From assembly GCA_012728235.1 (NCBI GenBank), contig JAAYFL010000003.1, positions 1-32,600 of the forward strand: 32,600 nt of DNA, read 5' to 3'. The stretch comes from Synergistaceae bacterium. Its GTDB lineage: Bacteria > Synergistota > Synergistia > Synergistales > Synergistaceae. Both the position numbers and the translations under genes were made by a program. A model generated the notes under the pieces. That model saw nothing but the letters and a program-made list of their open reading frames with translations, was not told the origin of the DNA and did not search any database. Positions within the stretch are counted from its first letter, which is position 1, and each line of letters starts with the position of its first letter. Of the stretch, positions 12,162 through 15,637 are shown in pieces.

Positions 12162-12884
12162 CTATAAACTCTTATTAACCTCAGTCAAATAGTTCCCTAT
12201 CCCCTCGTTAACAACAAGGTCAGCAAGATAGTCTAAAGGGGTCTTATCCCTGTTAATTATAACGAGTTTGGCCCCTGAGTCCTTTGCTTGCCTCGGGAAA
12301 TAATTGGCGGGAGAAACGGCTAAAGATGAACCTAGGACAATAAAGGTATCACAATCAGAGCTCCACTTATCTGCCTCTTTAAGTGGTTTTTCTGGCAACA
12401 TTTCTCCAAATAAAACGACACTTGGACGTAAATTCCCTCCACATGAACAGGAAACCTTCCCCAGAAAATCTTCTGTCGTCCCTTTTTTCCCACAAGAATG
12501 ACAAAATACCGGTTCAAGACTCCCGTGAAGCTCTGCCACTCTAACCGCCCCGGCTCGTTGATGCAACCTGTCTACATTCTGGGTTATAATGCCAGTTATA
12601 AAACCTTTCTTTTCCCAGTCTGCAATAAGCTTATGCCCGATATTTGGGAGAATGGTATCGGGAACATAAAGACGCTGCTTATAAAAGTCTACAAACTCAT
12701 CATATCTACGCTCTAAGACTCCAACAGAAGCCATCTCAGTGGGATCAACCTGGGACCAAATGCCATCCCTAGAACGAAAATCTTGAAGCCCTGATTCTGT
12801 GCTTAATCCAGCACCGCTAAAAATCACCACATTGCCTTTTTTAATTCGTTCAGCCAACCAATCTATTCCGTTGTTTTTATTCAC
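12162..12884 (-). CDS. cobB: NAD-dependent protein deacylase, Sir2 family
   Basis: A 240-residue sirtuin, which removes acyl groups from protein lysines using NAD+. The NAD-binding motif is FSGAGLSTESGLQDFRS, the ribose-binding motif is ITQNVDRLHQRAG, and the catalytic His is in ELHGSLEPVF. Four zinc cysteines follow (CHSCG and CSCGG). GSSLAVSPANYFP closes the Rossmann fold. The frame opens at a TTG at 12899, but the GTG at 12884 is preferred because GGAG lies 9 nt upstream, inside the longer reading. The gene follows folD after a gap of about 60 bp and is probably last in the ABC exporter-folD-cobB transcript. Desuccinylase Tyr/Arg residues cannot be judged with confidence. Confidence 0.94.
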   Translation of the reverse strand: MNKNNGIDWLAERIKKGNVVIFSGAGLSTESGLQDFRSRDGIWSQVDPTEMASVGVLERRYDEFVDFYKQRLYVPDTILPNIGHKLIADWEKKGFITGIITQNVDRLHQRAGAVRVAELHGSLEPVFCHSCGKKGTTEDFLGKVSCSCGGNLRPSVVLFGEMLPEKPLKEADKWSSDCDTFIVLGSSLAVSPANYFPRQAKDSGAKLVIINRDKTPLDYLADLVVNEGIGNYLTEVNKSL

Positions 12885-12943
12885 TCTTTTACACTCCAAT
12901 CCGTTTTCACATAATTCATTTAAAACAATCTTCTGTATTATTT

Positions 12944-13840
12944 CTAACGAAGATCGGATAATTTTGGGAAAATAAGGCTATTCCCCAGTCTTCTTTTCGT
13001 GGCACATAGTAATAAATTAACAAGGAGAAGGGAAACAGTAATGGGGCCAACACCTCCAGGAACAGGGCTTATGGCCTCGATATCATTTTCTGATTCTAGA
13101 AGTACATCGCCCACAAGTTTGCCTTGTGGATCAAAGTTCGTTCCCACATCTATAACCCAAGCTTCTTGAGTAAGCTCATTCGTTTTTACTATACCTGGCA
13201 CTCCGGCAGCTACAACTACTACATCCGCCGTAGACAGCATTTTTTTTAGTTGCTTTTCAGATGTTTTGGTGTGGCATACGGCAACAGTTCCATTTTTATG
13301 CATTAACATGTTCGCAACTGCTCTGCCCACATTTGCACTTCTACCAACTACGACACAATTTTTCTCCTCAAACGAACTATAGCCATGCCATTCCAACAAG
13401 GTAAGAGCTGCCCATGCTGTACAAGGTTTTGGCGTGCCTTCTTCTCCTAAATACAGGCGACCCAAGTTTTCGGGATGAACTCCCTCTACATCTTTGTCAG
13501 GAGAAATGGCATTTATAATTTCGCTCATTTTCCAATCTTGCGGCAATGGCGTCTGTAATATTATTCCGTCAATTGCATTATCTTTTGCGATTTTATCTAT
13601 TTCCTTTAAAAAATCGACTTTTTTTATGTCTTTTGGATATTTTATAAATTTTGCCTTAATACCAGCTTCTTCACAAGCTTTAATTTGACTATTTATATAG
13701 CGCTCTGAAGCAAGATTTTCTCCAATTTGAACAGTTACGAGAGTTGGGGACCATCCATGCTCTCCCTGTATTTTTTGAACTTCTGAAGCAACCCATTTCT
13801 TTATTGACAGCGCAACCGGCTTACCTTCAAGCGATCTCAT
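12944..13840 (-). CDS. folD: FolD-type methylenetetrahydrofolate dehydrogenase with altered catalytic residues
   Basis: Encodes 298 residues and aligns along its whole length with FolD, which oxidises 5,10-methylene-THF to methenyl-THF and hydrolyses it to 10-formyl-THF. Conserved parts are SERYINSQ (Tyr48), ILQTPLPQ (Gln96), the NADP-site GRSANVG and VPGGVGPITV. Two of the four key residues known from E. coli (Tyr50, Lys54, Gln98, Asp121) differ: the lysine is Gln52 (codon CAA) and the Asp is Glu119 (KDVEG instead of KDVDG). PCTP is also changed to PCTA. In known enzymes loss of this lysine abolishes the cyclohydrolase, so this protein may be dehydrogenase-only. The C-terminus is extended. 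The ATG has AGAGGTG upstream. Confidence 0.92.
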   Translation of the reverse strand: MRSLEGKPVALSIKKWVASEVQKIQGEHGWSPTLVTVQIGENLASERYINSQIKACEEAGIKAKFIKYPKDIKKVDFLKEIDKIAKDNAIDGIILQTPLPQDWKMSEIINAISPDKDVEGVHPENLGRLYLGEEGTPKPCTAWAALTLLEWHGYSSFEEKNCVVVGRSANVGRAVANMLMHKNGTVAVCHTKTSEKQLKKMLSTADVVVVAAGVPGIVKTNELTQEAWVIDVGTNFDPQGKLVGDVLLESENDIEAISPVPGGVGPITVSLLLVNLLLCATKRRLGNSLIFPKLSDLR

Positions 13841-13888: not shown

Positions 13889-15637
13889 TTACACCCCTAA
13901 GTTCTGTGTATTGTAAAGTTCAGCGTAAACTCCATTTTTCTCCATCAGTGATTTATGATCTCCATCTTCAATAATGACACCATTTTCAAATACAAGTATT
14001 CTGTCTACATTTCTTACCGTTGACAATCGGTGTGCTATTACAAATGTTGTTCTGCCTCTTACCAAACTATCAAATGTTTCCTGTATTTTCGCTTCAGTTA
14101 CACTGTCTAACGCTGAAGTAGCCTCATCTAATATTAAAAATGGAGGATTTTTTAGAAAAATCCTTGCTATTGAGATGCGCTGTTTTTGCCCTCCGGATAA
14201 CATGGCTCCCCTCTCGCCCACAAAAGTATCAAATTCTTGTGGCATGGCCATGATATCATCATAGATCTCTGATTGTTTTGCAGCATCTATAACTTCTTCT
14301 TCTGTCGCACCTGGTCTTCCATATCTGATGTTTTCAAGAATACTGTCAGCAAAAAGGAATACTTCTTGATCCAGCACACCTATATTTTTGCGCAAAGATT
14401 CCTGAGTAACATCGCGTATGTCAATATTATCGAGTAAAATTTCACCTTCATCTACATCATAAAATCTAGGGATAAGTTTGCACAAAGTTGATTTTCCGCC
14501 ACCAGAATGACCCACAACTGCAACTGCCTCTCCGGGCTCCACATGAAGAGAGATGTTATGCAGGACAGGAAGACCCTTTTTATAGGAGAAACTCACATTG
14601 TTTATATCTAATTTCCCTTTAAGTCTGTCAAGCTCTATCGCTGTTGGACTGTCTTGCATCCTCGTTTCAGTTCTCATAAGCGAGACAAAACGCACAAAAC
14701 CAGCCTTACCTTTTGCAAACAATTCGGCGAAGTTAGCAAGTTTTCTTATTGGAGTGATAAAAGTAGCTATATACAAATTAAATGTGATTAGGTCAATATT
14801 ATTCATCTGGTCCTTCATTATTAATATGCCGCCAACCAAGATTACTGTTGCCGGTAATATACAGAGGAAGAACTCCATTGTTGCAGTGAAATGTCCCATG
14901 GTTTTATAGAATTTAGTTTTAGACTTTCTAAAATCCATATTGGATCTCGTAAATTTTTCAAATTCTATTTCTTCATTTGCAAATGCTTTGGATGTTTTCA
15001 TTCCAGATAAACCTGACTCTATGTTAACATTTATGGATGCTGTTTTCTCCTTTACATCAAGGGAGGCTTTTGCCAACTCATACCTTCTATGCCAGATAAC
15101 CAACATAAATATAGGCAATATCAGAAATATTATCAGAGTTAATTTCCACTGAATGGTAAATAAAACGGCAAGAGAACCGATTATTGTTAATATTGAAATA
15201 AAAACGTCTTCAGGTCCATGATGGGCGAGCTCTGTTATATCAAATAAGTCAGTTGTTAATCTGCTCATCAGCTGTCCGATACGGGTCTTATCAAAATATC
15301 CATAAGATAAATTTTGGATGTGTCTATATAAATCGCTTCTGATATCAGCTTCTACCAACACTCCGAATGTATGACCGTAGTATGTCAAAATAAAATAAAA
15401 GAATGCTCTTACTGTGTACGCCAATAACATGATTACCATAACTAGTATGAAAGTACTAAAAGCATTTGAAGGTATTAATTTATATAGAGAATAGCGAGTT
15501 ATAGCAGGAAAAGATAAGTCTATAAGCGCTATTAGAAAAGCACATGACATATCCAGTATGAATAGTTTTTTATGTGGCTTAAAATATGAAAAAAATATAG
15601 AAAGAAGTGTTCTTTTTTGAAATTCCTTTGTGTCCAT
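13889..15637 (-). CDS. ABC exporter, fused permease and ATPase (MsbA/BmrA type)
   Basis: Encodes 582 residues, the usual size of a half-transporter that works as a homodimer or heterodimer. The N-terminal half has about six membrane segments, the first near residues 25-45. The nucleotide-binding domain carries Walker A GHSGGGKST near residues 375-383, the signature LSGGQKQRISIARIF near 480, Walker B FLILDEATSALD and the switch His in IAHRLSTV. The substrate cannot be predicted; lipid-A-like lipid or drug export are both possible. It begins a transcript with folD (48 bp downstream) and cobB. An extended -10 (15680-15688) lies upstream. No partner half-transporter is adjacent, favouring a homodimer. 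Confidence 0.93.
   Translation of the reverse strand: MDTKEFQKRTLLSIFFSYFKPHKKLFILDMSCAFLIALIDLSFPAITRYSLYKLIPSNAFSTFILVMVIMLLAYTVRAFFYFILTYYGHTFGVLVEADIRSDLYRHIQNLSYGYFDKTRIGQLMSRLTTDLFDITELAHHGPEDVFISILTIIGSLAVLFTIQWKLTLIIFLILPIFMLVIWHRRYELAKASLDVKEKTASINVNIESGLSGMKTSKAFANEEIEFEKFTRSNMDFRKSKTKFYKTMGHFTATMEFFLCILPATVILVGGILIMKDQMNNIDLITFNLYIATFITPIRKLANFAELFAKGKAGFVRFVSLMRTETRMQDSPTAIELDRLKGKLDINNVSFSYKKGLPVLHNISLHVEPGEAVAVVGHSGGGKSTLCKLIPRFYDVDEGEILLDNIDIRDVTQESLRKNIGVLDQEVFLFADSILENIRYGRPGATEEEVIDAAKQSEIYDDIMAMPQEFDTFVGERGAMLSGGQKQRISIARIFLKNPPFLILDEATSALDSVTEAKIQETFDSLVRGRTTFVIAHRLSTVRNVDRILVFENGVIIEDGDHKSLMEKNGVYAELYNTQNLGV

Follow-up and report, generated by a model that had tools for sequence, protein, structure and literature searches.

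A FolD of a Synergistaceae bacterium with linked Gln and Glu in place of Lys54 and Asp121 is predicted to act as a dehydrogenase only, with FchA as the cyclohydrolase

The folD locus and the encoded protein

The stretch of DNA analysed here, hereafter the window, comprises 32,600 nucleotides of contig JAAYFL010000003.1 from the draft genome of a Synergistaceae bacterium (GCA_012728235.1). It carries a folD gene that was identified from its ORF, its domains and an alignment to Escherichia coli FolD, with a sirtuin gene and an ABC exporter gene as its neighbours, as the original prediction had described. The codon positions listed below follow from the alignment and from 13840 as the first position of the ORF.

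12162 to 12899, minus strand: Sir2 sirtuin gene, 44 bp downstream of folD
12944 to 13840, minus strand: folD of the Gln54/Glu121 (Lys-less) type, predicted to be dehydrogenase-only
13484 to 13486, minus strand: codon of Glu119, aligned with Asp121 in the E. coli enzyme
13685 to 13687, minus strand: codon (CAA) of Gln52, at the place of the catalytic Lys54 of E. coli FolD
13889 to 15637: ABC exporter gene, neighbour of folD

The ORF starts with ATG and encodes 298 aa with no internal stops. The protein matched PF00763 (110 bits, cut-off 32.8) and PF02882 (161 bits, cut-off 27) over nearly the whole length of each domain, and its best solved relatives were FolD structures. The predicted model had the FolD fold (pLDDT 83.7), with solved FolDs at a Z of about 31 and low confidence in the stretch 117–131 around Glu119. 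Both domains and the fold thus place the protein in the FolD/methylene-THF dehydrogenase family. Equivalog models of NCBIfam for bifunctional FolD matched it as well (best 25 of 32, E-values up to 3e-71), all of them under the curated cut-off, the top match reaching 240 bits vs 333.

The alignment to E. coli FolD bore out every residue assignment of the original prediction: Tyr48 and Gln96 correspond to Tyr50 and Gln98 and are kept, Gln52 (YINSQIK) replaces Lys54, Glu119 (KDVEG) replaces Asp121, and the PCTP motif reads PCTA. The protein therefore lacks the catalytic lysine that characterizes bifunctional FolDs, having Gln52 there, and Y48, Q52 and E119 were invariant across an alignment of 8 members of this Gln type. 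Family-wide positions are given below in E. coli numbering.

Residues 54 and 121 across three phyla

FolDs collected from 188 Synergistota genomes and then aligned included Lys54/Gln98/Asp121 (n=37), Lys54/Glu98/Asp121 (n=10) and Gln54/x/Glu121, the window type (n=16), while most of the remaining Synergistota had a second Lys-less class (n=85), in which Asp121 is retained, residue 54 is small or hydrophobic (Ala, Ile, Leu or Val) and residue 98 is in most cases Phe or Leu. The ten proteins with Glu at 98 that keep both Lys54 and Asp121 form a YKED variant (for example L059, L062 and L064, from G110, G111 and G109, respectively). The N-terminal domain of FolD went undetected in 40/188 of the genomes, most of them with FchA (for example G011, G013, G014 and G015 of group f3).

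A profile built from Gln-type proteins and scanned with the pattern KD[VAI]EG, by which Glu was pre-selected, found Gln-type FolDs also in Omnitrophota and Planctomycetota. When 99 Planctomycetota genomes were sampled with a family model neutral to Gln/Glu, 52 FolDs were Gln-type, 28 Lys-type and 11 other. The 16 Synergistota and nearly all 52 Planctomycetota Gln-type proteins come from unbiased family searches. About two-thirds of the sampled FolD-bearing Synergistota and Planctomycetota genomes had a Lys-less FolD. A search of viral contigs found no relatives there. The replaced residues pointed out originally are real, but what had looked like a lone oddity is a large subfamily present in three phyla.

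In 276 aligned FolDs, Glu121 accompanied Gln54 in 97/97 cases and Asp121 accompanied Lys54 in 78/79, meaning that the two catalytic residues are indeed both replaced, as one linked signature rather than as independent hits. Gln-type FolDs typically also have Val, Ile or Met for Phe123, Ala for Pro143 and Ala for Gly145. They retain Tyr50, His190 and the GGVGP loop, which argues for a dehydrogenase that probably still works. The lone Lys54–Glu121 protein, from G017 (L173, about 1560–2500), has Lys54/Glu98/Glu121 (YKEE) and groups with the Synergistota Gln types, possibly as a return to Lys or through long-branch misplacement.

Phylogenetic trees pointed to few transitions. A careful tree of 55 FolDs, from which the four trait columns had been removed, needed 1 change between Lys-type and Lys-less proteins, and a quicker tree of all 276 needed 2. 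In the 55-FolD tree, the Synergistota Gln types formed a strongly supported group (100/95), and those of Planctomycetota and Omnitrophota formed another (99/98). The best tree thus suggests that the Gln/Glu pair arose twice, although a constraint uniting every Gln type in a single clade was not rejected (AU p 0.27). These trees are unrooted, which makes gain and loss of bifunctionality indistinguishable, and long branches may distort their deep order. Since very few changes part the Lys-type FolDs, that of E. coli included, from the Lys-less ones, bifunctional FolD could be the derived form. We offer only tentatively, as a rather unlikely reading, that Lys-less dehydrogenase-only FolDs are deep branches possibly as old as the bifunctional enzyme, that the latter arose later and made FchA dispensable, and that Gln54–Glu121 marks one ancient lineage.

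FchA in the window genome and alongside Lys-less FolDs

The window genome is a 1.57-Mb draft in 163 contigs with a completeness of 96%. It has a single FolD (one PF02882 match and one PF00763 match), and searches with these two models revealed no second, Lys54-bearing copy. A single PF04961 protein (209 aa, 202 bits) is encoded directly downstream of Fhs, so that the search proposed with the original prediction, for another FolD or for an FchA, yielded no second FolD and one FchA-like protein. Its sole NCBIfam match was the FchA equivalog NF045657 (9e-54, 182 bits, under the cut-off of 275), and its closest solved structure was a methenyl-THF cyclohydrolase. We also considered FTCD in place of FchA; the formiminotransferase domain (PF02971) was not found in the genome, so that no FTCD is visible to which the PF04961 protein could belong. 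A need for 10-formyl-THF is indicated by three genes with a formyltransferase domain, the family of Fmt and PurN among others.

Pooled over the samples, PF04961 (FchA/cyclodeaminase) accompanied 95/97 Gln-type FolDs vs 59/76 Lys-type genomes (p 3e-5, uncorrected for kinship). Genomes that share ancestry do not count as independent samples, and a test that corrects for this would need more than the 2 independent contrasts available in the tree. In Synergistota, FchA is near-universal (167/188 genomes) and its presence cannot, for that reason, separate the FolD types: all 16 Gln-type FolDs were accompanied by it, and by simple counting it occurred with 93/98 Lys-less vs 41/46 Lys-type FolDs, a difference that was not significant (p 0.29). 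The phylum-level contrast between Lys-less and Lys-type FolDs comes from Planctomycetota, where 59/61 Lys-less vs 18/28 Lys-type genomes had PF04961 (p 1e-4), and from gene context. When only short, stand-alone PF04961 genes were counted in Planctomycetota, the link was weaker (29/52 vs 8/28, p 0.03); a long-frame PF04961 gene, which may be FTCD rather than FchA, was the sole copy in 21 Gln-type Planctomycetota, and one long PF04961 protein, from another of the scanned genomes (L225), looks like a bifunctional FTCD.

Among the 36 genomes of the Gln-type profile search, PF04961 was missing in 3, two of them Lys-type (Clostridium and Dethiobacter) and one a Phycisphaeraceae with Ile54; every Gln-type match in this wider scan had PF04961, while both Lys-type matches were without it. 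PF04961 was unseen in some Lys-less genomes (G127, G163, G167, G089, G105, G198, G276 and G313), G276 and G313 being Gln-type Planctomycetota. G167 is rated 100% complete and has a Lys-less FolD (L096, Ala54/Leu98), its missing PF04961 match reflecting a gap in the assembly or else the use of a different cyclohydrolase.

Gene neighbourhoods supported the FolD–FchA link independently of co-occurrence. In Omnitrophota, fchA lay immediately upstream of Gln-type folD at 12/17 loci, several of them after fhs. In Synergistota, it was found beside 37/85 hydrophobic-type vs 8/48 Lys-type folD genes (p 0.002) and adjoined 0/16 Gln-type genes, half of which (8/16) had an adjoining sirtuin gene. An FchA match stood beside folD in Planctomycetota in 2/52 Gln-type and 0/28 Lys-type cases.

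The sirtuin–folD pair is kept in 8 Synergistota genomes of four genera, all with a Gln-type FolD, the sirtuins being 65–80% identical, and no sirtuin was seen beside the 48 Lys-type or 85 hydrophobic-type folD genes of this phylum. We know of no functional link between the two genes. The idea that Gln52 mimics an acetyl-lysine in connection with the adjacent sirtuin was dropped, as it found no support and as no sirtuin gene adjoins Gln-type folD in Planctomycetota or Omnitrophota.

Predicted division of labour, alternatives and known systems

Substitution of Lys54 in E. coli FolD by Asn (K54N) left cyclohydrolase activity undetectable and dehydrogenase activity at about 19%, and the authors of that study regard the lysine as essential for the cyclohydrolase (PMC5688156), in keeping with what the original prediction had said of this residue. 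In human MTHFD2, Asp155, which by numbering is Asp121 of E. coli FolD, contacts the pterin (PMC9173628). With its folate- and NAD(P)-binding machinery kept, the window FolD would oxidize 5,10-methylene-THF reversibly to 5,10-methenyl-THF. The needed lysine being Gln52, the cyclohydrolase function is probably lost, while Glu119, one carbon longer than Asp, may help to re-seat the pterin beside Gln52 so that dehydrogenation stays efficient; the separate FchA encoded beside Fhs would then interconvert methenyl-THF and 10-formyl-THF. Judging from these sequence comparisons, we consider it very probable that the window FolD is a dehydrogenase-only enzyme whose cyclohydrolase step is carried out by FchA, within an old subfamily that has fixed the changes of Lys54 to Gln and of Asp121 to Glu as a pair. 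The FchA gene beside Fhs, the single FolD, the genomics of three phyla and the K54N enzyme all lend support to this reading, which is also that of the original prediction.

A different outcome would be that Glu121, Gln54 and a water replace Lys54 in an alternative cyclohydrolase centre, leaving the enzyme bifunctional and FchA redundant or serving another flux. The change of both sites together without exception (97/97) speaks of a joint constraint, which may just as well concern how the dehydrogenase binds its pterin. The two Gln-type genomes without PF04961 (G276 and G313) and the 21 with its long-frame form only would fit such a centre, and computational work on MTHFD2 left undecided whether the lysine is the catalytic base (PMC9173628). 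However, FchA almost always accompanies a Gln-type FolD, operons included, and K54N abolished detectable cyclohydrolase activity in the E. coli enzyme (PMC5688156), and we consider the alternative centre improbable. Still less credible is a protein of the FolD fold that has degenerated or taken on a new role, acts on another substrate and has no methylene-THF dehydrogenase activity. It could be invoked because two active-site residues are replaced and a change of Lys54 alone cuts the E. coli dehydrogenase to about a fifth, but this is the only FolD of a genome that also has formyltransferase-domain genes, Fhs and FchA; it is intact, of full length and conserved over several genera with its dehydrogenase motifs kept, and Omnitrophota operons join Gln-type folD with fchA and fhs.

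In a draft of 163 contigs, one could suspect that the Lys54 codon was misread in sequencing or misassembled. This is refuted by the same Gln with its linked Glu in independent genomes from further genera and from other phyla. The FolD of a genus-mate (G141), 66% identical to that of the window, also has Gln, as do those of 14 more Synergistota genomes; the CAA codon is not an error, a doubt raised with the original prediction, and this explanation can be set aside with near certainty.

The only models that Gln-type proteins match carry the name 'bifunctional FolD'. Because about two-thirds of the FolD-bearing genomes sampled in Synergistota and Planctomycetota are Lys-less, metabolic models built on that name would assign an activity that is probably lacking and conceal a need for FchA. 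The coupling of Lys54/Asp121 vs Gln54/Glu121 offers re-annotation a simple signature, and mutagenesis a clean target for how FolD joins or splits its two activities, and the Gln/Glu signature makes gain vs loss of bifunctionality testable. In the literature searched, in which subscription papers were thinly covered, we found neither this signature nor its breadth described.

The division of labour between FolD and FchA is itself already known. Aluri and colleagues are said to have studied the FolD, FchA and Fhs of Clostridium perfringens in 2016; that FolD is reportedly a monofunctional dehydrogenase, with FchA supplying the cyclohydrolase. The likeness lies in the separate FolD, FchA and Fhs genes, the comparison being one of gene sets and not of residues 54/98/121. 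As in a FolD that works with FchA, the window genome has an FchA gene and no second Lys-bearing FolD.

With canonical bifunctional FolDs (E. coli, PDB 1b0a; human MTHFD1 and MTHFD2) the window FolD has its domains, fold, Tyr50 and Gln98 in common, at 33–38% identity. It differs from them in the replacement of Lys54 by Gln and of Asp121 by Glu and in the FchA of its genome, E. coli being without FchA (it was not among the control genomes with a PF04961 match). A dehydrogenase without cyclohydrolase is also known from yeast, in the NAD-dependent methylene-THF dehydrogenase (Barlowe and Appling 1990, as cited in PMC11064299). That enzyme (PDB 1edz) has the same fold as the window FolD (Z 23.4), but the two share just 20% identity when structurally aligned, and the yeast enzyme belongs to a different, eukaryotic branch. 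In the fhs–fchA–folD clusters of acetogens and syntrophic acetate oxidizers, FolD and FchA are annotated separately beside Fhs (PMC3584212, PMC8515935). The folD of the window genome sits outside its fhs–fchA cluster, unlike those of acetogens, and the Omnitrophota Gln-type loci resemble the acetogen clusters.
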